64,000 bases of DNA from Apostichopus japonicus (taxonomy: Eukaryota > Echinodermata > Holothuroidea > Aspidochirotida > Stichopodidae), in the NCBI RefSeq assembly GCF_037975245.1, contig NC_092562.1:29215554-29279553 (forward strand), read 5' to 3'. Under the pieces are notes generated by a model, which searched no databases, was not told the origin of the DNA, and saw only the letters and a program-made list of their open reading frames with translations. Position numbers and translations under genes: made by a program. Every line of letters starts with the position of its first letter. The first letter of the stretch is position 1. Of this stretch, positions 1,018-52,735 are shown in pieces.

Positions 1018-1258
1018 CTTAGGAAAAAGAAAATTAGTTTTGAATATAACCTATTTGTTCAATGTCTCATCATTCACATTTTATTAATTAATTTGTCATT
1101 CATTCATTGTATACAGAAAATTATCTGACAAATGCAATACACGGCACCTTTAATGTAGTATCTCAAACTTAAATATGAAACACATAAACATCGGTGGAGG
1201 AATCGGGTGTGCCAGGGGGACACTGCCCCCACTTTTGGCACTGCGAAAGCACTGTGTA

Positions 1259-1320
1259 TCCCAGTAAACATTTTGACGTCGGATCGACGTCGGGCTTAGG
1301 TCCAGATGGTCGGTTAAACG
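1259..1320 (+). repeat. Left terminal inverted repeat of element 1
   Basis: It begins TCCCAGTAAACATTTTGACG directly after TA at 1257-1258. The first 33 or so bases match the reverse complement of the right end almost perfectly; the next 25 or so match with substitutions (ATGGTCGG is shared). Confidence 0.8.
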
Positions 1321-1389
1321 TCGGTGTCCAACATAAGTAGTAGTTTAGACGTCGGATTGACGTCACAAATTAATCCTTTCAATTTTCGA

Positions 1390-4230
1390 CGTCCTAACGA
1401 CGGCGGATGGACGTTTGTTAATATCGTAGTTATATAAAGGTAGTCTTTCCGACGTCGGATGACAGCCCTTTAATATACGTCGCGTTTCAATGGTCCATCC
1501 GACGCCGAAATGACCTATTATAATAGACCTATAATAAAAGGTTCGTTGGATCGACGTCGGATGAACTACGTACAGGCGACGTCGCAATGAGAACGTCCCT
1601 CCGACGCTCAAACGACCAGCCAGAATAGACTAATCATAAACGGTTCGTTGGATCGACGTCGGTTTAACTACGGACAGGAGACGTCGCACTGAAAACGTCC
1701 CTCCGACGCTCAAACGACCAGTCAGAATAGACTAATCATAAACGGTTCGTTGGATCGACGTCGGTTTAACTACGGACAGGAGACGTCGCACTGAAAACGT
1801 CCCTCCGACGCTCAAACGACCAGTAAGAATAGACTAATCATGAACGGTTCGTTGGATCGACGTCGGTTTAACTACGGACAGGAGACGTCGCACTGAAAAC
1901 GTCCCTCCGACGCTCAAACGATCAGTCAGAATAGACTAATCATGAACGGTTCGTTGGAACGACGTCGGTTTAACTACGGACAGGCGACGTCGCACTGAAA
2001 ACGTCCCTCCGACGCTCAAACGACCAGCCAGAAAAGACTAATCATAAACGGTTCGTTGGATCGACGTCGGTTCAACTACGGACAGGAGACGTCGCACTGA
2101 AAACGTCCCTCCGACTCTCAAACGACCAGTCAGAATATACTAATCATAAACGGTTCGTTGGATCGACGTCGGTTCAACTGCGGACAGGAGACGTCTCACT
2201 GAGAACGTCCATCCGACGCTCAAACGACCAGTAAGAATAGACTAATCATGAACGGTACGTTGGATCGACGTCGGTTTAACTACGGACAGGAGACGTCGCA
2301 CTGAAAACGTCCCTCCGACGCTCAAACGACCAGTCAGAATAGACTAATCATAAACGGTTCGTTGGATCGACGTCGGTTGAACTACGGACAGGCGACGTCG
2401 CACTGAAATCGTCCCTCCGACGCTCAAACGACCAGTCAGAGTAGTCTCATCATGAACGGTTCGTTAGATCTACGTCCGCTCAACTACGGACTGGCGACGT
2501 CGCACTGAAAACGTCCCACCGACGCTCAAACGACCAGACAGAATAGACTAATCATAAACGGTTCGTTGGATCGACGTCCGTTCATCTACGGACAGGCGAC
2601 GTCGCACTGAAAACGTCCTTCCGACGCTCAAACGACCAGTCAGAAAAGATTAGTCATAAACGGTTCGTTGGATCAACGTCCGCTCAACTACGGACAGGCG
2701 ACGTCGCACTGAGAACGTCCCATCGACGCTCAAACGACCAGAAAGAATAGACTAGTCATAAACGGTTCGGTGGATCTACGTCCGCTCAACTACGGACAGG
2801 CGACGTCGCACTGAGAACGTCCCATCGACGCTCAAACGACCAGTCAGAATAGACTAATCATAAACGGTTCGTTGTATCGACGTCGGTTCAACTACGGACA
2901 GGCGACGTCGCACTGAAAACGTCCCTCCGACGCTCATACGACCAGTCAGAATAGATTAATCATAAACGGTTCGTTGGATCCACGTCCGCTTAACTACGGA
3001 CAGGCGACGTCACACTGAGAACGTCCCATCGACGCTCAAACGACCAGAAAGAATAGACTAATTATAAACGGTTCGTTAGATCGACGTCCGTTCAACTACG
3101 GACAGGAGAAGTCGCATTGAAAACGTCCCTCCGACGCTCAAACGACCATTCAGAATAGACTAATCATAAACGGTTCGTTGGATCGACGTCGGTTCAACTA
3201 CGGACAGGAGACGTCGCACTGAAAACGTCCCTCCGACGCTCAAACGACCAGTCAGAATAGGTTAATCATAAACGGTTCGTTGGATCCACGTCCGCTCAAC
3301 TACGGACAGGCGACGTCGCATTGAGAACGTCCCATCGACGCTCAAACGACCAGAAAGAATAGACTAATCATAAACGGTTCGTTGGATCTACGTCCGCTCA
3401 ACTACGGACAGGCGACGTCGCATTGAGAACGTCCCATCGACGCTCAAACGACCAGAAAGAATAGACTAATCATAAACGGTTCGTTGGATCGACGTCCGTT
3501 CAACTACGGACAGGAGACGTCGCATTGAAAACGTCCCATCGACGCTCAAACGACCAGTCAGAATAGACTAATCATAAACGGTTCGTTGGATCGACGTCGG
3601 TTCAACTACGGACAGGAGACGTCGCACTGAAAACGTCCCTCCGACGCTCAAACGACCAGTCAGAATAGGTTAATCATAAACGGTTCGTTGGATCCACGTC
3701 CGCTCAACTACGGACAGGCGACGTCGCATTGAGAACGTCCCATCGACGCTCAAACGACCAGAAAGAATAGACTAATCATAAACGGTTCGTTGGATCTACG
3801 TCCGCTCAACTACGGACAGGCGACGTCGCATTGAGAACGTCCCATCGACGCTCAAACGACCAGAAAGAATAGACTAATCATAAACGGTTCGTTAGATCGA
3901 CGTCCGTTCAACTACGGACAGGCGACGTCGCACGGTAAATGTCTCTCCGACTTGATCATTGATATAGTTGGTTGGATCGACGTCGAATGAAGTGTCGACA
4001 AGAGACGCCATATTAAACGACGTTAAAACAACAATTCAAAATAGACTAATCATAAACGATTCGTTGGATCGACGTCGGCTGAACTAGTTCGGTGTTGGAA
4101 CGGCATTGGCGGTAGAAGTATATAAGCTTCCCTCTTTATACGCTCCAATGACTATCTAGAAATATACTATATCATAAACAGTTCGTTGGATCGGTGTCGA
4201 ATCAATTTTGAACAGCGGGCGCTTACGTGA
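1390..4230 (+). repeat. Left subterminal tandem array, 102-bp unit
   Basis: The landmark CGGTTCGTTGGATC recurs at 1641, 1743, 1845 and so on, a period of 102 bp, for about 24 regular copies to about 3915, with diverged copies at both edges (near 1420-1540 and 3965-4230). Each unit contains the ACGTCG/CGACGT core several times. A higher-order pattern is visible: variants with GGATCCACGTCC, GGATCTACGTCC, GGATCGACGTCC and GGATCGACGTCGG follow in order from 3255 and repeat from 3663, a 408-bp (four-unit) period. Confidence 0.9.
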
Positions 4231-7200
4231 ATACGTATACCTTCGACGTTTAATACAGTTTATTAATATAACGTAAAATAAACATTTCGAAATACGTGTA
4301 TCCGTGACATCCAACTTAACACTGGCAATCATATGCGACTCAGACGAAAGCTGTGAAAGTACCGTCAGTATATACAACAACTTCTCGCTTATCATGCCGT
4401 TATTAAGGTAAGTAAAACTTAAATGAATCCAATAAAAGGAGACATATTTTCAGTAAAATGAAACTATAGAGCAATGTTAAACATGTTAACAAGTATATTG
4501 CAAATCTACACTCGTTTTCTTCCATAACACTTGCACTGCGAGTGAAAGAAAGAACCATATCTGGTGCAGTAATATTGAGGTAACGTTTAACTTAAATAAT
4601 TGATTCGGTCATGGCAGCTCCATATAACAATTATGAATCAAGTAATTGTTTGACGCACTAGAGCATACCTCGTTATACCCCATCCCATATCCTCACAAAC
4701 ACATCCCCGACTACGCTTTTATAACACTTCCGTAGACAAATGTGCGTCGGCAGCGCTTTCATCTTCTGCTGAGCGAACGTGAAAGAGGAATGTCAGTTTT
4801 CCTAATATGCACTGTCCAAGACTATGGTAGCGCAGAAGGGACATTGCATTGAACAGTTACCGACTTTTCTAAACCACAAACAACGGTAAATTGTCGAGTT
4901 GACGAGACGATAACGTCATAAAATTCACAAACTTGGTATTGAATGTTGTTAATTTATTATTAATTTTCTGTAATTTGCTGAGTCGCACACTGAGTTGCTA
5001 CTATCTCAAAAATGACAGAAATCGGAAAATGTTGACGAGATAAAGTATCTCCTTCAAGTTTCTGCAAATTGGCAGGTTACCAACTTTAACAAAACTACAA
5101 ATATCTGAAAAATGTTGAGATGGTAACGTGATTCTAGAAATTGCCGTTTTGACCGTACAACCGACGGATCTCGTCAACGGATTAATTTTCTGTAATTTGA
5201 AGAGTGCCAAACTTTTTCAAAGAAAGTCGGGAAATTAAAAAGAAAATTACTCTTCAATGATTTGACGAATTGCACTATACTAATCTCGCGAACATAGCAT
5301 TATATAATTGCGTTGAATTTTGGTTGCTCCATAGTGGAATTCAGTGTTGTTGCTTGTTCATTTTTTTAATAATATTTACGAGTTGTAATTGTGCAACACG
5401 ACACTTTAACGGTGGTCATAAGGGGACATGTCTCACACATTATAGAATAACTCAACTTCTTGCCATAAACTCGTGGTTCTGTCGGGTACCGACGCTTTCT
5501 TGACATGTCTGTCAAAAAGCTTATACCTGTACCATTGGTTTAATTCTAGGTAGACTGGCCACTGTTTAGCCATGTAGTGCCCCCCCCCCCCCCACACACA
5601 CACACAGAAACACTCATTTATAGGGAGTTTCATCCGCCATTTCCGGTCACAATCTGTTTGTTAATTTGGTGTGGGCGCTAGGGCTGTTGCCACGGCAACT
5701 CAATTTTAAATTGGAATTAATGTAAACAACATAAAAACAGTACGACTCTTTCATACCGTTTTATATTTTCACAGCACAGCAGACTACCCCAACCTCCGCA
5801 TTAAATCTCATGTATAGGCTGGGTCATGTAATGTATGATTAGCCATGACCCATGATAATTGGTCATATAGGCCCAATAATCACGTGCAAATAAACAAAGG
5901 GTCAAGTTTTTAATGCTTTAGTATAGGTCAGGCCCATCTTTTAAGTGTTGCCGAGGCTGAAACTTCTAGAGTGTGGGACCTCCTTTATAGCTACTGGTTA
6001 TCTGCTAACTTAGGTAGATCAAACATAGCTCCTGCGCCAGAATGCGATCTATTTTCGCGGTTATAAAACACTACCGTATTTTATTCTTAAATACGATCGT
6101 GCAAATGCCGAACCTGGCTTAAGAAATAGAAACAAAATTGACTTCTCGTTCAAAACGGTCTTTTAATGAGTCAACCATTCGGACAATTGAAAATACAAAA
6201 GATTACATTTTCTTAGCACAAAGTACGTCAGTACAAAACTGTAAACATGCAAAATAAAGCCTACATATAACGTTCGGACATTCGGTGAATTAAAGGCTGT
6301 TGACAAAAGGATCCAAACTAAATTAGAATAAATTACTTCCAAATATTTCTTGTGCAAATAGTGTGAGCTATATCACACTAAAATTTGATAAAGATCTAAG
6401 CCTTAATAGCACGATTCTGTAGAGCTGTTACTGTTGAGTACTTGAAGCAAATTAAATTTTCCTTGACGGGGGGGGGGGGGGGGGTAGTATAGCGATTACA
6501 TGGGGGGAGTGCCTCTACGACTTGCAAAATGTGTGCAAGCAAAAAGTCAAACAAAAGGTTTCATTCGACAATATTTCACACCTGCAACTTTCCATATTAC
6601 ACTACTTGTATAATATTTGGATCAGTATCAGATCTTTAGTTAATTCTAATTTATTCAGTTTCCGGAAACGGGGACCAAATATGCTACGTGTATCATCCCT
6701 TGCTCGTATAACTGATATGAATCCCACACGTTAGATAAGTCATATATTCCCTTTAGTGCAAACACACGCCCTCACATATTCAACATTGAAGGTTTCCCGC
6801 GTAAATATTAACATAAATAATCACTCTCCTACACAATGACCGGCTGGTCGAATCGTACGTACGTACAAGTATGATAAGTTGCTGTAATCATACACGTTTT
6901 ACATGCACGTGTTTGATCTCGCAGCTTGCGAGGCATGGATTATACATTGTATATATGACAAACATTCCACGTCTAACATACATTAACCGGCCGTTATAGC
7001 TATAACAAATTGATCAGCATCAAACAGGGATTTGCGGTTACGAGATTTTTCGGAGTACAAGGTTTTTATATAATAAATGCAAAACTAGTGGCAGCGGTCT
7101 CAAAAAAACAAAACTGCCAAGAATTCGATATAATTTGTGGAAAATAAGGACCTTGCTCTGTATACTTATGTTGTTATACTATGTATAGCCTATAGGCTCA

Positions 7201-7844
7201 GATTTATTTACCAACCTAGTGTATGCTGTTGTATATACTGCACAGGCGGTAGGATGTTATAGCCTAGGCCTTGTCTGTTTTTTGTTGATTCCTCGAATTA
7301 AGTTATAACCTATACTGGAGTATAGCAGAAACTGAAATGATAACGTCCTCATTGTGTTCCTCTTTATGAAGTCGGACAAGGCCTAGACGTAGGAGGTCAA
7401 TTTTATTTTTTCAAACATTAAAAGGCTAGGGCCTAGGTCTATTCTTCGAACGGTATAACAATAAAGGTAAATAATTGAGCTTAGGCCCAGGGGTTGCTAC
7501 AATTTTCGTCCCACTCCCAGTTTCAAACTGCCCCAAGCTAGGATCACCCCCCCCCTCCTATATCGTATTCTTAAACATTACCAAAAAAGGCACCAAAAGT
7601 GGTTTTTACCATATTCGATACTATCCTAGACTAGGGCCTAGAGGCTAGTTCACAATCCCAAAGAAGAGAATGCCCAGGGACACTGGGATATTAATTTAAC
7701 AATAACAGTTTAGGAAAGACAAAATCCCCACACCTGTCTTGAATACTCAATATAGTTCCCTCTGAGACTAAGAGGATATTTTAGGCCAGTTGAGCACAAC
7801 TGCCCGTAGCTTAAGTCTCGAATTTTCAACATTTCTTCTTTGCT
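4231..7844. other. Non-coding interior of element 1
   Basis: No convincing coding exon was seen in these 3.6 kb. The phrase TTAATTTTCTGTAATTTG occurs at about 4962 and 5183 in similar surroundings, suggesting an old local duplication of about 220 bp. There is a C-run near 5580 followed by CA repeats, and a G-run at 6469-6484. The stretch upstream of 7845 would hold the promoter and any 5' exon of the transposase, but no clear signal could be picked. Confidence 0.5.
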
Positions 7845-9914
7845 ATGGCTTATGTAAAACCAATATCGTATTGGAAAATAAGACGTAATGTACAATTTCA
7901 ACTAAAGCACCACCCCTATCTCAAAATAGATAAGAGTAAAGTTCCTAAACAGATTCAAGAGCCCAGCAACTTAGACATTCCAGTCACAAATACTGCACTA
8001 AATTTTACTTCTAGCCCCACAGTATCACAAACAGGCCATGACAATGTTAGGCTTAGCACTAGGCCTTCTGAAAGCAAACACCTCTTCAACAATACATTAA
8101 ACAATCCTGGAGTTACCCACAGGCCGAGTAGTAATTCTGAAAGTGAATTTGAAGAGCTTTCACAATGTTCTAGTAGCCAGTCAGATGTTGATGAAATGAG
8201 CCTCTCTGATCAGTTGGGGGAATGGGCTACATCAAACAACATATCACAAACAGCAGTATCTAGTTTGTTAAACATTTTAAAACCATACCACATTGATTTG
8301 CCAAAGGATCCAAGATCACTTCTAAAGCCCATTAAAGACATTTCTTTTGAAAACATAGCAGGGGGCAAGTACTATCACTTTGGCATTGCTAACTACATTA
8401 AATCAAAAATGCAGTTATCACAGCCATGTAAAGAATCTATCTCAATTAAAATTAACATTGATGGTCTACCCCTGTTTCGCAGTTCAAATATGCAGTTCTG
8501 GCCAATTTTGGGGATCACTGATCAAATTTTTGACAGTACACCATTTCCAATTGGAATATTTTCTGGAATGTCGAAACCATCTCCAGTTAATGAATTCTTA
8601 AAACCATTAATTGACGAGGTTACAAGTCTCGAAGAACATGGTATTGAGCATTGTGGGGCAAAATACCAATTTTCAATATCTGCTGTTATTTGTGATGCCC
8701 CGGCTCGTGCCTTAATAAAGCGTGTAAAAGGGCATTCCTCCTACAAAGGCTGTGATCGGTGCATACAAACTGGAACTTGGATGGGAAAAATGGTGTACAA
8801 AGAAAGTGCAGATAGTTTAAGAACTGACGAAAGTTTCCAACAAATGCTTGACGAAGATCACCACCTTGAACAATCTCCATTTTCATCTACTTCTATAGGA
8901 TTAGTTTCCCAATTTCCATTAGATTATATGCATCTGGTGTGTCTGGGTGTTACTCGTAAACTGCTGGGTTTGTGGATGAAAGGTCCGCTCAAAACTAGAA
9001 TGCCAACCAGAGTGATCAATGCAATTTCTGAGAAGATGATTTCACTTAGAGAGTTCATGCCAAGAGAGTTTTCAAGAAAACCTAGATCACTCCGAGAAGT
9101 TGATAGATGGAAGGCTACGGAGTTCCGTCAATTCTTAGTCTACACTGGTCCATTAGTCCTTTCTAGCCAAATACCAGTGAACCTTTACCACAACTTCATG
9201 CTGCTTTCCGTTGCAGTTCAAATTCTGTTGTCACCAAGGCTTTGTAACCAATCATCATTGATTGATTATTCTGAAGAATTATTAAAACTGTTTGTTGCAC
9301 ATTTCTCCAAATTGTATGGCAAGGAAATGGTAGTGTACAATGTACATTGTTTGCTTCATCTTGCTGATGATGCACGTAAATATGGTCCACTAGATAATGT
9401 TTCTGCATTTCCATTTGAAAGTTATTTGGGCACATTGAAGAAAATGGTGAAAAAGCCATCACTGCCACTGTGGCAAGTAGTTGGGCATCTGTTGAGAAAG
9501 GGGGAAATTCAGAAAAGCATGAAGAACAATGAGTACACTATCCTCAAACAAGAACATTCAAATGGGCCAGTGCCAGAAGGACATTTAGCTATGTCACAGT
9601 ATGCCTACTTTTATCACAAAGATTTGAATGTCCATATAACTCTTTGCACTGGGGACAATTGTGTTCAAATAGGGAATGATGTGTGCCTAGTGCAAAACTT
9701 TTTTGTTACCAATGATGATTTGTATGTGGTTTATCGATCATTCACTCACAAGGAAAATTATTTTAGCTATCCTTGTGAATCAAAGTGTATAGGAATTTTA
9801 CAAGTTGACAGTATAAGTGAAAATCTACAGGTATCACATTCGAGGGAAATTTTCAAAAAATATGTACTTTTACCGCATAGAAATTGGTTCATTGCTATGC
9901 CTATCCTTCATTAA
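7845..9914 (+). CDS. CACTA/EnSpm-like transposase, intact 689 aa
   Basis: A single uninterrupted ORF encodes 689 residues. After a low-complexity N-terminal third (residues 1-120, Ser/Asn-rich) comes the catalytic region. Candidate acidic residues are D206 in KINIDGLP, D284 in ICDAPARAL and E525 in FPFESYLGTLK; D360 in the conserved DYMHLVCLGV box is also notable. A CxxC at 303-306 (GCDRC) may bind zinc. The segment RKPRSLREVDRWKATEFRQF and the later YNVHCLLHLADD are typical of the CACTA-like transposases multicopy in cnidarian, molluscan and echinoderm genomes (recollection of the family). It would bind and cut the termini at 1259 and 19311 in the nucleus. The ATG at 7845 is the first Met of the frame; a spliced upstream start cannot be excluded. 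The companion gene begins 143 bp downstream on the same strand. Confidence 0.85.
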   Translation: MAYVKPISYWKIRRNVQFQLKHHPYLKIDKSKVPKQIQEPSNLDIPVTNTALNFTSSPTVSQTGHDNVRLSTRPSESKHLFNNTLNNPGVTHRPSSNSESEFEELSQCSSSQSDVDEMSLSDQLGEWATSNNISQTAVSSLLNILKPYHIDLPKDPRSLLKPIKDISFENIAGGKYYHFGIANYIKSKMQLSQPCKESISIKINIDGLPLFRSSNMQFWPILGITDQIFDSTPFPIGIFSGMSKPSPVNEFLKPLIDEVTSLEEHGIEHCGAKYQFSISAVICDAPARALIKRVKGHSSYKGCDRCIQTGTWMGKMVYKESADSLRTDESFQQMLDEDHHLEQSPFSSTSIGLVSQFPLDYMHLVCLGVTRKLLGLWMKGPLKTRMPTRVINAISEKMISLREFMPREFSRKPRSLREVDRWKATEFRQFLVYTGPLVLSSQIPVNLYHNFMLLSVAVQILLSPRLCNQSSLIDYSEELLKLFVAHFSKLYGKEMVVYNVHCLLHLADDARKYGPLDNVSAFPFESYLGTLKKMVKKPSLPLWQVVGHLLRKGEIQKSMKNNEYTILKQEHSNGPVPEGHLAMSQYAYFYHKDLNVHITLCTGDNCVQIGNDVCLVQNFFVTNDDLYVVYRSFTHKENYFSYPCESKCIGILQVDSISENLQVSHSREIFKKYVLLPHRNWFIAMPILH

Positions 9915-10057
9915 AGAGCAAGTTTATATTAAGGAGACTTCAGGCCAGTTACTGTTAGTTTAAGTTTAATGTTAAATACATTTTAACACTTCATTTACTT
10001 ACATATATGATCATCACTTTAACATAAATTAGAAAAGTTATATTACTCAATCTTAGC

Positions 10058-13000
10058 ATGGACCCATTGTATCACATTGTGGAGTTTACGGACTCTAAGG
10101 AGATAGCCATCATCAATGAGAAATGGATGGTTTCTGAGGGTACTTGTTTGTGGCCCCCCTTCAAATCTTCAGCAAGTTTGGCAAAGGCTCTGAAGACTAC
10201 CACAGAGCCCGAGACAAGTTGGAAGGCTTTTAAAATAAGAAAACTATATGCAACAAGTAAGTAAAAATTATGTTAAATATAATTGAAGGGTGTGTCTTCA
10301 TACTCTCTATTTGCCCCCATTTCTAAGTACTGGTTTTAATACTTGTTGCTAATATGCTACACAGCCCAGAAGTTTGAGATGAAATGTTGGAGAACAGTAA
10401 TAAATTAATGCAGTAACTACCATTGAACGCACTGTTTCACCACGATGGGCTATGAACTCACAAGTGCTCTGTCCAGTGGTTACCTAATCTATAAGGACCC
10501 CCTCCCCCCCACCCTGTCTCATGCCCTTCGTTTATCCTTCTCATTTTGGCTGGGTTATCCAACTGTTTCCTGATATTTTTCAATTTACCAAGGAATAAAA
10601 TAAAAATGTAACTTCACAAATTCAAAGTAAAGGTATTCAAATACATGGGGCATATTTTATATTATTCCATACAGATTCATATGACAAGGCAGTTTCCAAA
10701 CTAAGGCAGGCTGAAGATGATTCAGACCTGCAGACAGGAGATGAGGAAGTAACCATAGGAAGAAAACGAAAGTAAGTCCCAACACAGCAAAAAGACTGAT
10801 AGAGTCACACATGTATACAAAGCAGTGAAGCACCAAAGTATAATTATCACCAAGTTTCTCTTTTCAACTGGGGTGGGAGGGTGATTTGTTAGCGTAAAAG
10901 TGGTCAAAGTAAGATAGATTTTAGGTTATCATTATTGTATTATGGTAATTTAATTTTTATTTAATTTTTTTATTTTATTGCAGACCTAATCAACGTTATA
11001 TGGTTGAAAGCTCGAGTGATGAGGAGTTTCCTGCCTCACCAAAGCGACCCAGACCACCATCATTGCCATCAACTTCAACACCTGTAACTCCGCTTGCTCT
11101 ATCTCCTGCCCCACCGCGCTCTCCAACCCCACCTTGCTTCCCCAACCAAACTTTGGACAATAGTGCAGCCTCTTCTTTCCATTGCCCTGGTAATTTTCTT
11201 TTAACTCTTTTCAATTATTTGCAAGCATTGTACATTAGCTCTATTGATTTACAGAATTTTCAGCTTCATTAAATTAAAGCAATTGACACATGTTTGAATT
11301 GTTTCAATTAAAACCAGAATGCAAAATGCATTGAGGTTTCGATGACTTCAATGCACTAGACTTCTGCTTGTTAGTATATAACCAGAACTAGCTGTCACAA
11401 TAACACTATGGCATGCTAACACAGGTCAGTCTGTACGTGGTTATACACACCTCCATCAAAAACAGTAGGGTTCTTGTACTCAATGTTATGAATCCGCACA
11501 CCAAGTATTACAAACCAAACCAAATCGCTAATAACTTTGCACATTAAGGTTGCAGAGGAGTCCACTTATGGACAATTTAGATTGGAATATGCCCACGAAA
11601 CTTGAAAGAATCAACTTGAAAGAAGCTAACACAGGTCACTGGAGGTCAACCTGAGGTCAAAGGTCACCCAAATGCAGGTCGACTATTGTATTACAATAGC
11701 GTAACTCCCAACCTTGATGGACATTTGGTTCTCAAGTTATTGCAAAAATACTAGTTTTTGACCCCTGATTGACCTTTGTTGACATTGGATCACATGACTG
11801 TTATGTTTTGAAACAATCCCTTACCCCATTCACAACTAGTCCCAAAATATCAACCTTGTTGGAACCTGTCAATGGTAGTTTCACAAGTTGAGAAAAACTA
11901 GGCCAACATTACAGCCAACTCCATGAAGTGAAAACAAATCTCAAGTTCACAGGTGCTTGACCTAGTTTCTCCTTGGCAGCTGGCCAAGAAATGTTTTGAA
12001 ATTCGTGGTACCTGTGCAACTTACATCTAACCAGAACTACCAATGATCTACAAATATTTTCTAGAGAAGGCATGCTTCGCCATTCAAATGCACTATTCCA
12101 TCAAAATCACATCAACTTTTTAGCAAAATATCCATACGGATGAGTGACAAGTGTTGCAGTAGCTCTAGCACTTTTATATATCTATGGTCTGCAAGCAAGC
12201 CTTGGAAGACACTGTTTTACACACACACACACATGTATGTAGCTATGTACATAGTAATTCAGGACTTCTAGCGACACACTTAAGTCAATGGGGATATTGT
12301 CGCGAGTTCGGATTCAAATCTACGGATGACCGTAAGATCATTTTCAATTGTCAATAGGCTCTCCTATTCTTATGAGGCGAATCGCCCATGTCATCTACTT
12401 ATAGGCTGGACGATGGGAGATACCTATATTATGAAAAGGTATGAAAAAAGTTGACCCCTGGTGACCCTAAATGAACTTCGACATCCACCAAAAACGATAG
12501 GCTTTTTGTACTTAATGTGGTCAACCTACATACCAAATATGAAATCAATCCAAGCTTTGCTTCTTGAGATATCATGTTTACAAGCTTCTCACTATTTGAC
12601 CCCTGGTGACCTTAAATGACCTCTGACCTACACCAAAAACAATAGGCTTCTTGTACTCAATAAGGTACTCCTATGTACCAAATATGAGAACTGTCCAAGC
12701 TTCCCTTCTTGAGATATCGTGTTTACAAGCTGGGCGTCACAAACGCACACACACACACACACGCATGATTGCAAATGTTACGATTATCATCGAAACCAAA
12801 AATGCTAAGGTATGAAGACAAAGTAATATTTGTTACTATTTAATATTATTTATTTATATTCTTGTGAATTGTTATTTATTATTAAATTGATGCTAAATAT
12901 GCAACAACAAAAAATGAAAGACCTAATGTACAGTATAATTTTTAAGGGAACACAGTTTTACTATGACACATGGAGTTTATAGGAATGTAACTAAGTTTAT

Positions 13001-14707
13001 TTTGTTGTTGTCAACTTTCATTAGATTTTGAAAAAAGGGTAATCTCGATGCTGACGGAGATTAAGGCGGAGGTTCAGCACAACAAGTTGCTGCTAAAAAC
13101 ACTGACTGAGGCAAACGTCCTACCAGAGAGTGAAGAAGACGATTGGCTAAATGAATTTCCTCTAAAGTCCCTTGAAGGTATAACTTCTTTGGAGGAAAAA
13201 CTTAAAAATGACACAGGATCAAGGAAAAAACTGGTAAGAAATGTTTTTTGTGTGTTTTTGATTGCACGTTTTTAAAGAAACCAGTAGTGTAAGCGTTCTA
13301 TGATTGAGTTTTAGACTAAATGTAACTTGCTGTAATTTCGTGCTCCATCAATTTGTAATATAAAGTTAATGAAAACCTTTTCACAGCCATATTAAATAGA
13401 CATATGATGCTATGTGGTCTATAAGTCTCATATTTCAACCCAAGTTATAAGTGTAGATGGCACAGTTTAAAATTTGCTCTATGAGCCTTATAATTGCATA
13501 TTGCTTTAAAAATTGCACTACTTTTTTTTCAACTGGGAGTGGTAGGAGTCTTACAGTTTTAAACAATCTTGCCAAACTCTTAGATACTTATGCACCCAGT
13601 GACCCCACTCCTGTCATACGTGGTATGTCATAAGTCATACCTCTATCTGAGATATATTTGCATTATTTTTTTGAAAAAATTGTATCTCTGTTAACTACAT
13701 ACATTTTGAAATATATTACTTTTTAATTATACTTCTTGTAGTAATGTTTACCAAATACATATTTTTAGAAAATAAATTAATTACAACTAATGTAATACTA
13801 ATAGTAGTATGGTGGTAAATAACAAGTAAACAATTCATAACTTATTACAACTGGATAACATAAACTTTGTTCCTTAATAAATTTCATTTTTTTTTCGCAA
13901 TCACCTCCTTATATAGGTCCAGAAGCTGTCTATGATAGGTGGGACCAACTTGGATAGTAGTGTGAGAAGGATTTTATCATTCCTAATGAGCAGTGCCTTG
14001 GCCACAAAATTCAACTGGTTAGGCAGGGGGAGTGCCGAAAAGAAAGCCTTTTCTACCCTTCTTCTGAAAGATTTGATTTTTAGTAAGTATACAAATGCCT
14101 ATCATAAAAAAAATAAAATCGTCCCAGTTGTTCAAATGGTATATATACTGTGACAAACTAACTGTGCTTCAATGATGCATCATGTAACATGTAGAAAAGC
14201 TTCACACTGAACTACACACAAACATTATGCATTGTATACATCTTTCCCAAAAGGCCAAGGCCCATATTTTAACCATCAAGCAACTTTGTGTAGATTGAAT
14301 GGTTTTGTCAGACTGCAATGTGTGACTGTAATTCATATAAGATAATGTACTCATCTTTGCAAAGCGCTGAGCAGAGCAGTAAAATTGGACCAAGTTGATA
14401 AGTATCATCAATGCCCTCCAATCATTTGGGATGAGACTTGCCTGAAATAAACAACATAATATCAATTAAGCCATGCGGTCAGTCATTAGATTACATTTTC
14501 TCTTGGTTTATTCATGTGATTATACTTATAATTGCTCTTCGTTTTTTCATATTGTCCCTAGGGGCCATCTCAAGAAACCCCTTGACAAAAACAGCAACCC
14601 AGTCACAGGTGGAAGCAGTCATTAAATTATGGCTAAAACATGCTGCAGACCGGACTGGTGCCCGCAAGGACAGGCAGGCACAACAGCCAGATTGTCAGCT
14701 TGATTAA
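10058..14707 (+). CDS. DUF4806-domain companion protein of element 1, six exons, 340 aa
   Basis: Exons: 10058-10256, 10675-10771, 10984-11189, 13025-13233, 13917-14082 and 14562-14707, every one with GT/AG borders, and all phases agree, giving 1023 nt. Residues 1-66 form a small N-terminal module (HIVEFTDSKEIAIINEKW, then CLWPPFKS) typical of DUF4806 proteins. Residues 67-167 are acidic then Pro/Ser-rich, with the basic run GRKRK as a likely nuclear signal. Residues 168-195 could form a short coiled coil. Residues 206-292 match the DUF4806 pattern: FPLKSLEGITSLEEKL, then LSMIGG, then VRRILSFLMSSALATKFNW. The last exon is basic and hydrophilic. The function of DUF4806 is not established. Its place directly behind an intact transposase, inside the same termini, suggests a DNA-binding or regulatory partner of transposition. 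Splicing is predicted, not shown. Confidence 0.8.
11440..12735. repeat. Dispersed ~130-bp repeat copies in intron 3 of the DUF4806 gene
   Basis: Two adjacent copies (about 12450-12590 and 12592-12735) share TGACCCCTGGTGACC, CACCAAAAACRATAGGCTT, TACCAAATATGA and TTGAGATATC. A weaker copy lies near 11440-11560, and another in the second element at about 24470-24660. Short CA runs follow at 12217-12230 and 12744-12761. Confidence 0.6.
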
Positions 14708-16269
14708 AGTCAAATACTTTAAATTCAACATAAGCCTAGATCATCTTTCCATTATCAATATCAAGACTGCTTTCCCATTGTTTAACTTTAGTGTGACACT
14801 TTTGAACTGTCATTAAACTGTTCCTTTCACTTAACATGCCTTGTAAATAGTAATGGCTATATTATAGTCTTCTAACACATTTTGAAGACTATAGCAGTAA
14901 AAGTAATCAGTAAAAAAATCTTGCAGGGTCTACATCCTTGCATCAAATGCAATTCCATTCTCCTAGTGAAAGATATTTTATTACAATTCAAAGTAGTCCT
15001 TAGCCTCATATCAGCCCAAAGTGCCTGCATGACATATAAACTACATGCTGGAGCCTGGTGGTATTCTGTTTGCTTCCTGGTTCCTCCAGTGCCTTTCCCA
15101 GAGGATGGTGCTACTTTTTTTCTTACAAATTAAGAGTGCTTAAATACAAAATGGTGAGTTATTATATAAGATTGGTAGTGACCAGAAGCCATTCTGGCAA
15201 TTTTCTTATCCCACCATACTTTTGGTGACTATTATCAAGTTACCACCCCCAGTTTAAAAGTAGTCTGCATAGGCCCCAAATTATAGCACTTTATAATTGC
15301 TAGACATTTTCAAAAAGTATTTTCCTGGAGGTCGTTATTCTCCAAATTGTTCTCGGACATTTTCTTAATGAACACCCAAGACGAAAGAATTTCTCTGTGG
15401 GGTAAATTTCTTCGAAGGCGGTAATAAAAACAATTTAAGAATTATGACCAAAGGTGACCATATTTAAATTTCTGGCATAATTCGCGGAAATACTGCATAC
15501 CTTTAAAATTAGCACTGCTACATGCTGGTCGATACGCAGACCGACTTTACAAAAAAAAAAAAAATTCTTACAAAGGAAATCCCGGCCTGAACTTTAATCT
15601 AAGTTAGAGGGTGTTGGGATTCAGGCATTAGCCAAATATGCTACAAATAAAAATAGTATATACAAATATTGTACTGCAACTATATACCAACTGCTATTGA
15701 AAACATCGGTTGATACTTGATAGGTCCACGGCATATGCCCTTCCTGTACAGACTGTAGTGTTATCCAGGGCATGATCAATTCGGTATCTTATTTCTACTC
15801 TGCAGTAATTGACTAAGCAACTGAGAACGAGTAACATGATAATTAAACAACTGATGGGATAAATATGTACTTACCTATCAACTCTATCGATACTGCTCAT
15901 TCCGTGTTTTTGGTAGCACGATATCTGTATTATTGCGTTTATTCTCGTATTAATTGGAAAACAAATTATTAGGCTGGAATGGCGATCCGTAACAAGTGTT
16001 ATGAGGCGGTTTACTGCTACGAGTGTGACGACGCCTTGTGAGCTCGGTAAAACTGGTATCTCGATTTCTCGCCCTTGCTCAAGTAAATGAGTCAAATATT
16101 CCGTTGATTATAAGATTACCTCTCTCGTCTCTAAATTAAAGTCCAATTAGCGTTGTTAAGTTACTTCAAGATACTGATAAGAAACCATGTTTACTTAAAT
16201 AGCCTGTACGTCCGCAAACAACGATCACTAGCTTAGAGCGATTGTTTCGACTAACTTTTCACTACTGAC
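14708..16269. other. Non-coding interior of element 1, 3' of the companion gene
   Basis: Nothing coding or RNA-like was recognised. The only notable item is an A-run near 15550. It presumably holds the 3' UTR of the DUF4806 gene, but no AATAAA was picked close to the stop. Confidence 0.4.
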
Positions 16270-16713
16270 CAGCGTTACCAGCGACAGTTGACGAAAAAAC
16301 GCTAGATTTGCGAAAATAAAACCCTAGAAAACGCTAAATGGTAGTTTCCCTAACATTCGTGTTGTTTGGAGTCAATTTAGCACAGATTCGTAGGATGAAT
16401 GGTCACCGATCACAAAATAGATTTTGAATAGTTGATTTGAGTGATAGTCTGACCCAGAAAATTTGAAAAAAATATGGAAATTTTCGGTAGGAAGTTCCGA
16501 AGATTGGGCAAAAATACTCAAAATAAATTTGGATGGGTCTCCAAGTAAGAATTTTGTCTAAATAATCTGAAAAGTGTTCAATTTTTGGTAAATTGAACTA
16601 GTTTTAGGCAAAAAACGGTAGAATTACCAAAATTAGAAAAAACGTGCGCTAGAACCCCACAAATGACTAAAAACGCTAGATCTAGTGTAAAAACGCTAAC
16701 TCTGGTAACACTG
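16270..16713. mobile_element. Non-autonomous hAT-type element (444 bp) with 8-bp target duplication
   Basis: The left end CAGCGTTACCAG and right end CTGGTAACACTG are inverted copies differing at one base. The 8-bp sequence CTACTGAC lies immediately outside on both sides (16262-16269 and 16714-16721), as expected for hAT insertion. The interior is AT-rich, repeats AAAACGCTAGA, and has no ORF. It sits inside element 1 and so inserted later. Confidence 0.88.
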
Positions 16714-16721
16714 CTACTGAC

Positions 16722-17925
16722 ATGCCTCTGAAATAAGAACTCTTGGGCTCACTCATGTTCGGGCATCTGGTCACTGATTGGTTCAATGTTACCTAATTCA
16801 TCAAATCTGTCATTGAAAGGACCAACCAAGAGTGAGAAAGAAACGTCACGTGCTGTTTATCTTTTTATTGTTTTTTTCTGAATTGACTAGACGTCTGAAA
16901 TAGCGGGTCAAGCAATTTCTTATGTTTTTCTTTTTAAGGGATTGTGGGAACCAAGGGAATGTCAAAATTGCAACGAGGTTAATGACCTTACATCTTGTAG
17001 ATAGACAGAATGTGGTATATGCACAAAGGCACCGACATTTCCAATCTACGTGTGTCTAGTAACGACTACAGAACAGATGTGAAAAATATTTATATTTCGA
17101 AATTTCAGTTGTATTACAGACTAGGCAATCACTACTTGTTTTGGATTGCTGTTATGGGAAAATGCTCGTGGCTTTCAATATTTATTTTTTACATTGTTTT
17201 ATTTTGTTGGTAATTTTCCTTTTTGTACTTCTCGAGTGTTTTCGGGATTTTCCCTACCTCTAGTGTAGTGAATGCGAGAAGGCATATTTTGGTGGGAGAT
17301 TAGTACCGTGACCTAGCGGTGTCAAACCTATTCTACTTGTAAAATGCGATACCAATAGGACTGCATGGACTATTTTCTTTACATTTGTGTAATGAACCGT
17401 AGGCGGTTGCAGTGATATTACGGTAAATCGTTACCGCCATAAGGGCGACAGAAATTTTTTTTCTTTCTTTCGATTGCGACAACTTTTCTCCATAAAACCC
17501 ACCTGGTCAGAGTGTATTTAGGTTAAGAAACGTTGGAATCTAATTCGGAAGTTTGTTTTCTGAAATTCATGAGGAAACTATGAATGGGACTTTAACATAT
17601 GGCATTTCATCGGCGGTAGGGTGTAACTCGTACGACAATGTACGTGTAGAGCGCTCCTTTTTACCACAACGGTTTATGTTGACAAGTTTGGAACAACAGT
17701 CAACAACTTCCATTGCCTTTTAATAAACATGCAGCTGTAGTAACATATAGTCTGTGCTATGTAGCGCATTTTACCTCTATTAACTTTATAGTAGACTTTT
17801 CTTGTGACTTTATCATATTATTGTAATCAAATATAAAAGGGCCGTTTTCTTTTAAAACGAAATATTTCAATCAACTCATGTTTTTCATTTTTCGATTTAA
17901 AACAAACTTACCATACATTGTTAGT
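16722..17925. other. Non-coding stretch between hAT element and right array
   Basis: No gene, RNA or repeat was recognised. Confidence 0.4.
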
Positions 17926-17929
17926 AAAC

Positions 17930-19240
17930 TATAAACCAAGCCAGAGTCAATCCGACGTTAAAATGATGTGTTACAAAGACGTCCACTTAACGTCGTTTGG
18001 TATATCGAAGAGACGGCCAAACGTCGGACCAACGATAATGGACGGTTTCATCGACGTCAAATCAACGTCGACATTAAATGTTGGAAAAACGTCCAATGAA
18101 CGTCGTTTGAACGGTATACCGAAGAGTCGGCCAAACGTCGGACCAACGAATATTGGACGGTTTCATCGACGTCGATTCGATGTCGACATTAAATGTTGGA
18201 AAGACGTCAAATGAACGTCGTTTGAAAGGTATACCAAAGAGTCGGCCAAAGGTCGGACCAACGAATTGTGGACGGTTTCATCGACGTCGATTCGACGTCG
18301 ACATTAAATGTTGGAAAGACGTGAAATGAACGTCGATTGAACGGTATAACGTAGAGTCGGCCAAACGCCGGACCGACGATTATTGGACGGTTTTATCGAC
18401 GTCGTTTCGACGTCGACATTGAATGTTGGGAAGACGTCCAGTTAACGACGTTTCAACGTATACCGAAGAGTCGACCAAACGTCGGACCTACGATTATTGG
18501 ACGGTTTCATCGACGTCGAATCGACGTCGACATTAATTGTTGGAAAGACGTCCAATGTACGTCGTCTTAACTGTATACCGAAGAGTCGGCCAAACGTCGG
18601 ACCAACGATTAATGGACGGTTTCATCGACGTCAAATCAACGTCGACATTAAATGTTGGCAAAACTTCCAATGAACGTCGTTTGAACGGTATACCGAAGAG
18701 TCGGCCAAACGTCGGACCAACGAATATTGGACGGTTTCATCGATCGATTCGACGTCGACATTAAATGTTGGAAAGACGTCAAATGAACGTCGTTTGAAAG
18801 GTATACCAAAGAGTCGGCCAAAGGTCGGACCAACGAATTTTGGACGGTTTCATCGACGTCGATTCGACGTCGACATTAAATGTTGGAAAGACGTGCAGTG
18901 AACGTCGTTTGAACGGTATAACGTAGAGTCGGCCAAACGTCGGACCGACGATTATTGGACGGTTTTATCGACGTCGTTTCGACGTCGACATTGAATGTTT
19001 GGAAGACGTCCAGTTAACGTCGTTTCAACGTATACCGAAGAGTCGGCCAAACGACGGATCAACGAATATTGGACGGTTTCATCGACGTCGAATTGACGTC
19101 GACATTAATTGTTGGAAAGACGTCCAATGAACGTCGTTTGAACGGTATACCGAAGAGTCGGCCAAACGTCGGACCAACGAATATTGGACGTCTGAATCGA
19201 CGTCGAATCGACGTTGCCCCACTTTGCAAACGGAAACGTG
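17930..19240 (+). repeat. Right subterminal tandem array, ~115-bp unit
   Basis: The landmark ACATTAAATGTTGG recurs at 18071, 18186, 18301 and onward with 114-115-bp spacing, about 11 copies. Each unit has CATCGACGTCG, GACGTCGACATT, GTCGGCCAAACGTCGG and ACGAATATTGGAC. The unit differs from the left array apart from the shared ACGTCG core. ORFs across the array are repeat artefacts. Confidence 0.9.
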
Positions 19241-19249
19241 GGAGACGTC

Positions 19250-19311
19250 GGTCCGACCATTTCACGCGACCCAAACCCAACGTCGATCCGACGTCAAAAT
19301 GTTTACTGGGA
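19250..19311 (-). repeat. Right terminal inverted repeat of element 1
   Basis: It ends CGTCAAAATGTTTACTGGGA at 19311, the reverse complement of the left terminus, followed by TA at 19312-19313. Confidence 0.8.
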
Positions 19312-19426
19312 TATATGGTAAGAAAATATATTCACAGGGCAATTTACCCTCAACTGGTTGACCCCCCCCCCCCCCCCGCCTTCCAAAATTGTTCTGCTGC
19401 CCATAAATGCATTTAAAATGTTTTAC

Positions 19427-20281
19427 CTGTCCACGAGTTTGAAACGATGCTGTGACACCATCGGCTGACTGGGCCAACTTTGATTTGATGATACGGGATC
19501 CTATGGCTTCCATCATTGGGGTCAAAGGCTCTTCTAAAGGATGCGTCAGAATCTTGGATGCTTCATCAGCTATGCATATGTGATTTTCCATATCCCGTAT
19601 GGGCATGGTTGTGTTGCATTGCATACATTTTACAGGCAGCAAAGATTTCACAAGGCATTGTAAGTACTCTTTTGGTGATGTTACCTTCCTTATCCAAAAC
19701 TTTTTGTCACACAGCTTGCAGATACAGGTGTTTTTCTGTTCGCTTTCACTTTTCAAACAGCTGAAGCAAAACTAATGACCACAAGGTGACTCAAGTGCTT
19801 CTTCAGTAATAGCACTACAGAAACCGCACTTCAGTTCATCTGGTATTTCAAGTTGAAAATGTGGCTTAAGAGGTGGCACTCTGGGTCCAGGGTGTAGGGA
19901 AGAGATGGAGACGGTAGTATTGAAATCCGCAGAATTTTAAAACTTTCTCTTCTTTGGGTGGCCTCCTTTAACTTGCAATTCCCACTTCTGACATACGTCG
20001 CAACTACCATTACGAGGGTGGCTCATCCATTGAATAGCGTGGCATTTTTTTTTCATGATACAATTTACAGTGGCACTTGTGGCAGATATATCTGGGATGT
20101 TGATCTTTCTCATCATTTTCCACACTGACTCCAAATATTTGATTTATTTTATTAGAGCATGCAGCACAACATTTGGACTGATAACCTTAACCATGCTCTG
20201 CTCTATTTTGAACCCTTTTACCACATATTCTGCACATTCGCTCCAAATATGTGATATGTTCCTCCAAAGTTGAAATTTGTT
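19427..20281 (-). pseudogene. Relic of a RAG1 N-terminal-region-like exon (RING finger included)
   Basis: Reading the minus strand from acceptor TATATACAG/AA at 20281 to donor CGTGGACAG/GTAAAA at 19427, the order matches the N-terminal third of RAG1: a RMCRICG motif; NKINQIFGVSVENDE followed by HPRYICHKCHCKL; W-SHPRN-SCDVC then GGHPKKRK; a RING finger CGFC...CGH-x-FCFSCL...CICKLC; then LVKSLLPVKCMQCN with a trailing HIC. It is broken: an in-frame stop soon after RICG, a frame change at an A-run near 20050, a stop at 19937-19939 after KKRKF, and a TAG at 19772-19774 inside the RING. No RAG1 catalytic core was seen nearby. Transposons carrying only a RAG1 N-terminal-like protein (N-RAG-TP) have been described in invertebrates, and this may be a remnant of one. 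It lies between the two large elements, outside both. Confidence 0.72.
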
Positions 20282-27400: not shown

Positions 27401-30400
27401 TGTATCTGAGGTGTTCCTCCAGGTATCCTGTTGCTGGTCTTCCTTTAGCACCTTTACAATACCATGCTTCCTGACAATAATAATGATTCCAAAATGTGAA
27501 ACATGCTTGAATAAAAGAGAGTAATAGGTTTCAAGCACTCAGCCAAAGTATGTCTCTTCTTCCAACAATATTCCTTTGATATCAGATCAACTGGTCAGGG
27601 TATTTTTGGCCAAATGACCCTTTGCTCTCAACTACAGATACAACAATGCATACCTTTATGGAACCCACACTTAACCAAATTGTCTTAACCATATAATGCT
27701 CATCTGTCAGAATGCAATGAATTCCTCTTTTATCTTCAACCTTTAAGCACACTGTATAACCCAAGAGAAGATGTGTTGAGCCCTTGGGTTTTTTCATAAG
27801 GCACATTTACAGTAACTAGTTCAATTAAAGACAATTTACTTACATAACCAAGTGGTGCATCTGAGTCATTTAAACATGGAAATGCAATGACGATGGCCTG
27901 GGCTAGTGCACCTTTGATGAAAGAACTTGGCCTGTGAAAAGCCTAAAAGGTGAATTATTTCAATGAGATTTTCAAGAACCTCAGTTTACTAATTTATGTA
28001 ACAAATTGACCAAGCTTGTGTGTTCTTCTCAAACGTCGCACCATACCAGAGGATGGCGCTGATTGACAGACTGATGCATTGTCATGGCATCATCGGCACT
28101 ACAAATCCCATGTCTTTCTTGCTTTAAATGAATATGATCTGAGCAATGGATGATTACAGGATAGCTGTGAATTCCAAGAGCTATTGCATGAGGAACTGTT
28201 GCAGAGAAATGAAATTTGCCCAAAATACTCACTTATCACCATGACATTCCATCATGTGACTAATGCAAAGCTCTACAATGCTGTGTCTATCAGCTTTGTT
28301 GCAAAATTTGTTTTCATCTGTATTCTTCATTGCCCTTCTTCCATTTGCATTTTCAATCAGAATATTTCTCACATCCTACAAGTAAACAAACAAGAGAATA
28401 GTGAGAATAATTATTACCAAGTCATTTAAGACTTAACTTCAGCTTAACAGCTAAAATTATCATGTATTGTGTGATATAAGTTATTTCCAGACCTTTACAG
28501 GAAATATTTTCTTAAATGGGGGCAGAAGGACATGGTTCCCCACACCCCATAACAATTGCTAGGGGATCGGGACATTACAGTAACGTCCTCTGGCTTTGTA
28601 CAGTAGGCTGTGTAATTGGCATGCTTTATATGAAAGAGACACCACTGGGCCCTGCCATATTTTAAATGTATATACCTTTATAAATATATGGATTACATGC
28701 ACTTACAAAATGAACCCGTTTTTCTCGCTTCAGTGGAGGTGGTTGGAATGAGGTGTCAGTGTCACACAAAGATTCATCTTGGCTTATGCTAGTGCCTTCA
28801 TCTTCAATATCCACACAACTAGAACTGCTACTGGCACTGGTACTAACATCCAAAGGTAGAAACTGCAATTGTTGACTGGGAAGCTGAAACTATAAAGAAG
28901 GACCATCAAGGACATAAATATAAGGATTGTTAGCTAACATGTTTTTCATAATTTCATTTGAATCAATCCCAATATAAGAATAGCTATTGTAGCTTCCTAA
29001 TCTTTGTGTAAAATGTTTTAGAAATAAACCAATACCCCTCTGTTAATATACACATACCAGTTCTTTTTTCTTCTGCATGGTGCACAGCTGATATTACACA
29101 CAGGAGAAACGTGTTGCAATGTACAAAATACTGCAATCATATCCATGAGTTTGAACAGCAGTTAATGGTCTGTAGTCAAACAAGTCACAAGGTTGCATAA
29201 TTTCTACATCTGTGCCCACTCCATGTTGAACAGCATATGCCTGTAAATGCCTCTCATAATACAATGTCTTGAGGGGTTTCAAAACCAGGAAAACAGATGT
29301 CTGTCTTACTAAAACACACACCACTTCACCAAATGTAGGTCCTTCTTCTGTCCAAATCATAACTACAGTGGCACTTTCTCTGAACTCATAGCCATGAAGT
29401 TCAGCTACTCCAGCAACAACAATTTCATCTTCCATTCCACAACTTAGCCTTGCTGCAACTTTTTCACTGTATTCAAGATTTCCAATGGTAGTTATAACTT
29501 CCTTGCTTAGAATAACATCTTCACTGTCAATTGGTTTCTCAATCAAACAGTCATAACACTGGGCTAGCTGATACTTTGTTGCCAATGTTTTGGAAATTGT
29601 TACAAATGTTTGCAAACTGCTTAAAAAGTTTGTGTTTCCCTTCAAAATGAATTGATGAATATTGTCGCAATGGACCAAGTTTGCGGATGATTCTAGGGTA
29701 GTGGATAATAATGTGCTGCTTTGGAGTCAGGTTACGTTGTGGAAACAACTGAAGGAAAAGTTCATGATGATCCTTGATTAAAGATTTAAGCATGTATGTT
29801 GCAGGCATGCTTATTGATTGGCTCATAACAATCTTAAGGATTTCAACCAATAACAAATAAAGATCCCACTCTTCACAGCTACTATTAATTTTGTCCCCAA
29901 TCATCAATGGCAAGTGAATTGTTAAGCATACCATTTGGGCAGCTGTTTGCCCACTTGCCCCACTAGGATTTAAAATTTGTGACTGTCTGAAAGGGTTCGG
30001 CTTATTTTTTTGTCCACAAATCCATAATTATAAGAGAGAATCCTGCTGTTAAGTTCTTCTAAAGTGAATACTCTTGTCTCAATAAGTCTTTGTATTATCA
30101 GATGCATCTCAAGTGGGACGATTCCTTCTGCAAAATCATGCATGATGTCTACAGCCAGGTTTTCCACAACATGATAACCTTCAATTTCACTCAAAACTGA
30201 AGTTGCCCTTATTCCAGTCTGAGAAATGTTATTAACATCATAATCTACTCTATAATTTTCTTGAGCGCGTAGAAGGTCTTGTTGTTCAACCATCTGCTTT
30301 TGAAGAACACTGCGGTGACCCTTACAGAACCTACAATAATAGTTGGCACTAAAACTCATCACATATCCCAGGAGGGAATGAACACCTAGATTATCTCCTA

Positions 30401-40106: not shown

Positions 40107-40535
40107 CTTGTTTGAGATGGTCAGTCTGGAGGAAGAAATTATCCATTTATAATCAATTTTTAATGCTATCGAAATACACAACAACGTGGTTGTAGCCTGT
40201 ATGCATATGCACTAATAGTAATACTTAGGCCTATACCTTTATGACAGCAATTATTAGTCTCTCAACCAATACCTACACAGCATACGGTATTGCCTTACAT
40301 AGGAAGTAGCACACATGCTGGTAGAAAGCAAAGAACGGGGAAAACACGAACAACGGTGGCATTATTGACTCTGTATTGCCCGCATCACACAACTGCAGTA
40401 GCGGCATGCGATACTTGTACAGCGTTAATGACAGTATATGAATATGTTTATACAATATTAATGTTATAACTATAGTTATAACCTTAATATTGTATATATA
40501 CGTAATGTGTAGCGATACTGTAATGGTAAACAGGT

Positions 40536-52287: not shown

Positions 52288-52735
52288 ATTTGGTACCACT
52301 GCATTGGTCCAAAGAACAAGACTGTTAACCAAAAAAATAATAATCATAATTAATACAATTTATTGGCAAACCATACAGTAGACAACAAGCAGTACCAGGA
52401 AAGGCCAAATGGGTTAGCGATTTTTGTCACATTGCATGTATGAGAATATAGACTGTAATACTGCAGAAAATATAAAAGTATTTAACTTAACCTCAAGTTA
52501 TTGACTTGCGTAATCCTGAAATCAGTATAAAGCCTGGGGACCTCAGATTAATTTGGCTATGTTTCCAGTACAGTACAAAATATTTGGATTTTTGTTCTTA
52601 ATAAAATATAAAACTAGTCTTGTACATGTTTACCAAAGGAACACAAACATACATACTGAAATGTGACTTTAAAGACTCCATTTCTCAAGGTTTTTTATAC
52701 TTATCACTCTGATTTGACAAGCATACATTGTTACA

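Follow-up and report, generated by a model that had tools for sequence, protein, structure and literature searches.

Does the 18-kb stretch near the start of this 64,000-nucleotide window of the Apostichopus japonicus genome (contig NC_092562.1, positions 29,215,554 to 29,279,553) form a single CACTA-type transposon, and if so, what part could its second gene play? A sequence-only reading of the window had proposed one complete, autonomous-looking element with two intact genes, and this was borne out by other genomic copies that share both its ends and its genes. We think it likely that this is a young, probably autonomous transposon of the TRC type whose companion gene, which encodes a DUF4806 protein, most likely supplies a binder of the tandem arrays inside the element's ends, in the manner of the plant protein TNPA. 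The companion and its conservation, to which the earlier reading had given no identity, are the more interesting part of the locus.

A complete unit with CCC ends and a 2-bp target duplication

The transposon spans 1260-19310 of the window (18,051 bp), with CCCAG as its first and CTGGG as its last bases. The unit proposed at 1259..19311 therefore stands, although each of its boundaries was one base off. The features that delimit it are:

1258..1259, no strand: left target-site duplication, AT
1260..1302, plus strand: left terminal inverted repeat, CCCAGTAAACATTTTGACGTCGG...
19268..19310, minus strand: right terminal inverted repeat, ...TGTTTACTGGG
19311..19312, no strand: right target-site duplication, AT

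The terminal inverted repeats begin CCCAGTAAACA and are 93% complementary over 46 nt, with a perfect inverted repeat in the outermost 30 nt. This 46-nt pair is the longest of 27 inverted pairs in 1-20500, and a 24-nt end pattern (at most 3 mismatches) occurred twice in the window and in none of 100 shuffles. The flanking duplication is AT and not the TA that had been read next to the termini. Both the base adjoining CCC and the repeated 2-bp sequence differ between copies. A cysteine-rich open frame on the minus strand (19262-19771) lies across the element's right end and has no Pfam match above cut-off.

Copies and empty sites in the genome

We searched the genome (671.6 Mb in 35 contigs) with the two ends, a check that the sequence-only reading had itself suggested. 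The left-end query (68 nt; 40 of 46 candidates scored) matched over at least 65 nt at no fewer than 24 places, and the right-end query (128 nt; 40 of 48 scored) matched over at least 112 nt at no fewer than 23. Both ends of one unit were read in 18 copies, comprising 12 long ones (16.0-22.7 kb, window included) and 6 short ones (1.77-1.88 kb). Nine long copies were read throughout, apart from a 205-base gap in one and a 46-base gap in another, and three at their ends only. CCC termini were present in all 18 copies, which had been selected by these ends (at most 3-4 mismatches), and at both ends of two related elements, B1 and B2, described below. The two bases outside the ends were identical in 15 of the 18 copies, against a chance expectation of 1 in 16, and their sequence varied from copy to copy; since some short copies share flanks, the independent cases number 13 of 15.

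The reading had named ends occurring independently of the transposase as evidence against a single unit, and such ends exist. Among the matches listed, 6 of 24 left ends and 5 of 23 right ends lacked a full partner, one of these left ends (C14 at 3.46 Mb) having a partial right-end match 14 kb further on, and the six short copies have lost both genes, with nearly identical internal break points. Unpaired ends and gene-less short copies are what decay and internal deletion would be expected to leave, and the unit was upheld nonetheless.

To look for empty sites, we joined the two 90-bp flanks of each of 15 insertions, leaving a single copy of the duplication where present, and searched the genome with the products (40 scored of 2,098 candidates). 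Each of the 40 matches listed covers a whole junction, always that of one of four insertions, at 98-100% identity: C14 (25 matches, two of which fall 1 base short of the query), the C4 insertion at 21.3 Mb (8), C7n, which is a short copy (4), and C22 (3). These empty sites, three belonging to long copies and one to a short copy, are paralogous repeats without the element; they set the duplication at 2 bp, and they give no sign of two separate insertions. A further copy, C4 at 17.8 Mb, lies in an 18-bp minisatellite, where removing the element together with one TA restores the repeat register.

The short copies retain 5-8 exact GACGTC motifs in their first 500 bp and 6-7 in their last 320, with none between. 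As these six derivatives occupy at least three unrelated places and have no genes, the proteins that moved them must have come from elsewhere. Flanking DNA is shared among L025, L049 and L050, and likewise between L026 and L027 (mostly 94-99% over up to 800 bp; at the right flank of L050 the match extends 24 bp only), which indicates that an insertion was duplicated along with a larger repeat or segment. Transposase loci of several TRC families crowd on contig C17 at ~15-26 Mb. The element is young and was probably active recently and, judged by its sequence, is probably autonomous.

The copies also place a 444-bp insertion nested within the window's element:

16270..16713, no strand: nested insertion, 444 bp, CAG...CTG ends, 8-bp duplication CTACTGAC

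It is hAT-like in its ends and 8-bp duplication, and among the nine long copies read it is found in the window's copy only. In six other long copies the alignment runs through the site with the insertion absent; C14 and C17b are unaligned over a longer stretch.

The transposase

The first gene was, as proposed, an unbroken frame:

7845..9914, plus strand: transposase, one exon, 689 aa, DUF4218 (open frame and Pfam profile)

Its DUF4218 match scored 28.8 bits, just above the Pfam cut-off of 27. From motif positions, and by eye, we assigned candidate catalytic residues D206 (NIDG), D284 (CDAP) and E525 (FPFE), together with the candidate zinc motifs C303xxC306 and H501xxxH505. A DDE triad with C2C and H3-4H zinc motifs between the second D and the E is described for EnSpm, Mirage, Chapaev and Transib (PMC12730594; this and the other papers are cited from partial text), and the motif positions of the element's transposase match this layout of the wider CMC(T) CACTA/EnSpm group.

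Seven transposase frames were translated in full and all were unbroken (the gapped C5 and the broken C14 were left out), and by protein search an essentially full-length, stop-free match was present in 9 of the 12 long copies. The window and C22 transposases differ at 3 of 2,070 nt (dS 0), and comparison with C17b gave dN 0.0068 and dS 0.021. Among viral contigs, 7 stretches fit a pattern, and none codes for a transposase relative.

Elsewhere in the window, 29094-31577 on the minus strand holds a second transposase-like gene, which is diverged and falls into three overlapping frames (535, 158 and 210 aa). By BLASTP it is weakly similar to the element's transposase (E 0.004), and its DUF4218 match stays below threshold; it may be a TRC-type element from a different family that has decayed or contains introns.

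A companion gene with a DUF4806 domain

Downstream of the transposase, on the same strand, lies the companion gene (10058-14707). The six exons of the sequence-only reading held up as a gene model with GT-AG introns and a predicted product of 340 aa:

10058..10256, plus strand: companion exon 1
10675..10771, plus strand: companion exon 2
10984..11189, plus strand: companion exon 3
13025..13233, plus strand: companion exon 4, in which DUF4806 begins
13917..14082, plus strand: companion exon 5, DUF4806 core, reported BEN-type domain
14562..14707, plus strand: companion exon 6, with the stop TAA at 14705-14707

The predicted protein matched the DUF4806 profile at 42.8 bits (cut-off 25; 6.8e-11). 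DUF4806 is described as a BEN-type DNA-binding domain (Pan et al. 2023, as cited in PMC11075544). Searches of PDB sequences gave no informative match; the top matches were rejected as chance, being summed tiny matches to repeat proteins with independent E-values of at least 79 in the rows listed. A DUF4806 profile search found no match in the whole genome or in 14 controls, which the division of the domain among three exons probably explains; an exon-wise protein search did find the companion.

Of the 9 long copies read, 7 have an intact companion that retains every splice site. Between the window and C17b its dN was 0.0089 and its dS 0.040, and on the few substitutions in this comparison both the transposase and the companion look constrained.

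The companion is linked to the transposase across families

From 70 of 75 protein-match rows we assembled 54 transposase loci, excluding five small fragments, and scored a locus as linked if companion exon 1 lay downstream on the same strand within 3 kb, counting those loci whose transposase match reached the C-terminus. Exon 1 was linked in all 14 loci of this family (at least 60% transposase identity) and in 19 of 22 loci of related families (mostly 41-50% identical). With truncated loci included, the counts were 16/18 and 21/29. One locus, C17 at 23.83 Mb, reaches 61% by one fragment only and is counted with the related families; before this placement the counts were 15/15 and 18/21. Taken from the other side, all 37 exon-1 matches, which exclude two further fragment rows from the same loci, had a transposase upstream on the same strand within 3 kb, leaving no orphan, and the spacing was 55-402 bp in 35 of them.

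Two related elements were read end to end. B1 (13,407 bp) has the ends CCCAGTAAGC and CCCAGTCAGG and the duplication TA, and B2 (13,541 bp) has the ends CCCAGCCAGC and CCCAGCAAGC and the duplication AT. Their inverted repeats match at a good 26/30 in B2 and a poor 16/30 in B1, which makes the B1 ends less certain. Both carry a companion downstream of the transposase on the same strand, matched in exons 1, 2 and 5 of B1 and 1, 4 and 5 of B2 at 32-52% identity over the matched parts, and by eye the exon 5 boundaries and phases are alike in all three elements. In a distant element, C17 at 25.0 Mb, no companion match was found in the 8.5 kb downstream that were read.

CpG-rich subterminal arrays

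The reading's two different subterminal arrays were confirmed:

1493..3951, plus strand: left subterminal array, 102-bp unit x 24.1, CpG-rich
17975..19214, plus strand: right subterminal array, 115-bp unit x 10.9, CpG-rich

There are 47 GACGTC motifs in 1260-4110 and 27 in 17941-19310, with a single one between, and all 43 occurrences of CGACGTCG in the window fall inside these two end regions. The motif-rich repeats extend into the terminal inverted repeats. The observed/expected CpG ratio reached 2.03 and 2.23 in the outer 400 bp of the window element and 0.45 in its middle; the corresponding values were 1.17, 0.92 and 0.40 in B1, and 1.25, 1.38 and 0.46 in B2. In place of GACGTC, the ends of B2 carry a CCGCCGGCGG-type motif and those of B1 a weaker CCGG-type pattern. 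Each of the three families read end to end is thus a CpG-poor element with CpG-rich ends and a motif of its own.

What the companion may contribute

In the mechanism that we favour, the DDE transposase, whose catalysis we take from its family, would cut at the CCC ends and insert with a 2-bp stagger. The companion, as a putative BEN-type protein, would bind the CpG-containing GACGTC repeats of both arrays and, once bound, would draw the ends together for the transposase. It would also govern whether the element is methylated or silenced, a role that TNPA has in maize En/Spm, and the internally deleted 1.8-kb copies, which keep both ends, would have been moved in trans. Seen this way, the companion is most likely the animal counterpart, by analogy, of plant TNPA.

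Several observations weigh against this reading. The copy C8 and the C17n2/C16n pair are without the 2-bp duplication, and the window copy's own empty site was absent among the matches listed (40 of 2,098 candidates scored). The transposase reached only 12.1 bits with Transposase_21 (cut-off 28.6) and likewise stayed under the cut-off for DUF1258. The companion also matches the XamI restriction enzyme family below threshold (19.2 bits; cut-off 25), and the PDB sequence matches listed for it include no BEN structure. Near-identical pairs such as the window and C22 are uninformative on selection, and in C8 and C17a an intact transposase stands beside a frameshifted companion. There was no exon-1 match at 3 of the 22 related-family loci or at any of the 7 loci below 38% identity, where none of the transposase matches reached the C-terminus and where a distant companion could evade a search made with the window's exon 1. 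Finally, later companion exons stand alone, with no exon 1 or listed transposase nearby, at four places (C12 21.04, C19 1.32, C3 8.86 and C17 19.20 Mb); these could be truncated copies, other families or host genes.

The alternative that survives best, which we nevertheless consider unlikely, is that the companion is a transposon-borne regulator, a repressor or anti-silencing factor that would act on promoter or chromatin and outside the transposition reaction itself. BEN proteins are described as frequent repressors of transcription and are predicted to recruit chromatin factors (PMC11732705; PMC11075544), and the two copies with a broken companion suit such a role. The companion's retention beside the transposase in families so far diverged, and the reach of the motif-rich repeats as far as the terminal inverted repeats, on which transposition proteins act, argue against it, although a regulator would be compatible with both points, plant TNPA having been reported in both roles (PMC2613891).

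Far less probable is a passenger origin, in which the element captured a host gene a single time and has retained it by chance. DUF4806 genes do occur elsewhere, for example four on zebrafish chromosome 4 (PMC11075544), and the lone later exons would fit this explanation. The linkage to the transposase speaks against it, with no orphan exon 1, a constant order and strand, and a narrow spacing, as do the frame and splice sites kept in most copies and a dN below dS between diverged copies. The idea that two separate insertions only appear to pair their ends, to which the unpaired left and right ends might lend something, was rejected because 12 long copies share these ends, the nine of them that were read carry the same genes in the same order, and four other insertions, three long and one short, have empty sites.

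Returning to an array-binding companion, there is a broader proposal, to which we would give somewhat less than even weight: that a deep animal branch of CACTA elements uses an obligatory BEN/DUF4806 protein as a sequence-specific binder of CpG-rich arrays, probably methylation-sensitive, convergent with TNPA and co-diverging with the array motif. On that view, many of the DUF4806 genes that have multiplied in animals, as in Hydra and zebrafish, would belong to transposons or descend from such genes by domestication. A published table counts DUF4806 as well as DUF4218 among the domains enriched in Hydra genomes (PMC7642931). If the companion does bind the CpG-rich arrays, plants and animals would have given CACTA elements unrelated subterminal-binding partners, and one source of animal DUF4806/BEN proteins would be explained. 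Near-identical intact copies, together with a defined unit, duplication, empty sites and small derivatives, make this family a test bed for animal CACTA transposition.

Other features of the window

Two minus-strand open frames (39171-40211 and 51400-52359) are alike by eye, and the first matches arylamine N-acetyltransferase (Acetyltransf_2, 2.1e-10). On the plus strand, 46403-49049 contains Neurexophilin and NXPE C-terminal domain matches, which are perhaps parts of an NXPE-like gene.

Comparison with known CACTA elements

By its termini and duplication, and with its transposase compared with Pfam profiles only, the element falls among the animal TRC elements, a branch of the CACTA/EnSpm (CMC) superfamily. 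It departs from the classical plant CACTA pattern, as its ends read CCCAG and no 3-bp match was seen outside the ends in any of the 18 copies. The sequence-only reading had taken termini of this kind as a reason to widen the superfamily. No widening is needed, because animal TRC elements that combine CCC ends with a 2-bp duplication have been on record since 2006 (PMC1636069) and again from 2015 (PMC4298943). The element type is thus already known in animals. For its second gene, our literature searches, with Repbase (which may note one) outside their reach, found no DUF4806 partner of CACTA elements, and as far as that literature goes a conserved BEN/DUF4806 partner gene looks new.

The closest descriptions are those of SmTRC1 and of the Tribolium and Aedes (CCCAGTCAAC) TRC elements, which have a CCC core and a 2-bp duplication (DeMarco 2006; PMC1636069). 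SmTRC1 and other animal TRC elements resemble the present one in their CACTA-related transposase, CCC termini, 2-bp duplication, internal tandem repeats and truncated copies, but they measure about 4.5, 5.2 and 9.2 kb, against 18 kb here, and the available part of that account shows no DUF4806 companion (PMC1636069). Hydra Spongebob / EnSpm-4N1_HM has a close terminal inverted repeat, CCCAGCCAACATTGAC, and a 2-bp duplication, and is filed under TRC of CACTA; it differs in its 5.8-kb consensus, in a transposase with stops or frameshifts and, in the text available, in showing no companion (PMC4298943). DUF4806-subtype BEN proteins share their domain with the companion, and in the account available they are known as chromatin or transcription factors, not as transposon partners (PMC11075544).

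Plant En/Spm, Tam1 and soybean Tgmt* (20.5 kb) are likewise large, with asymmetric subterminal repeats (PMC2613891). Plant CACTA elements also combine a transposase with a second, family-variable DNA-binding product, which here is predicted, and have deletion derivatives moved in trans; they differ in their CACTA ends, in a 3-bp duplication (Tgmt*) and in making TNPA by alternative splicing (PMC2613891). In En/Spm, TNPA binds the subterminal repeats and is required with TNPD for transposition, the proteins act in trans on deletion derivatives, and TNPA regulates itself (PMC2613891). At soybean TgmR*, the stabilised element is more methylated and the mutable one has hypomethylated subterminal repeats (PMC4219821). 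TNPA-like proteins have little sequence in common across CACTA families (PMC2613891), and no homology between TNPA and DUF4806 was found here, the companion's listed profile matches including no TNPA-type family. By analogy, the anatomy of this element is parallel to that of En/Spm, but with an unrelated partner protein.

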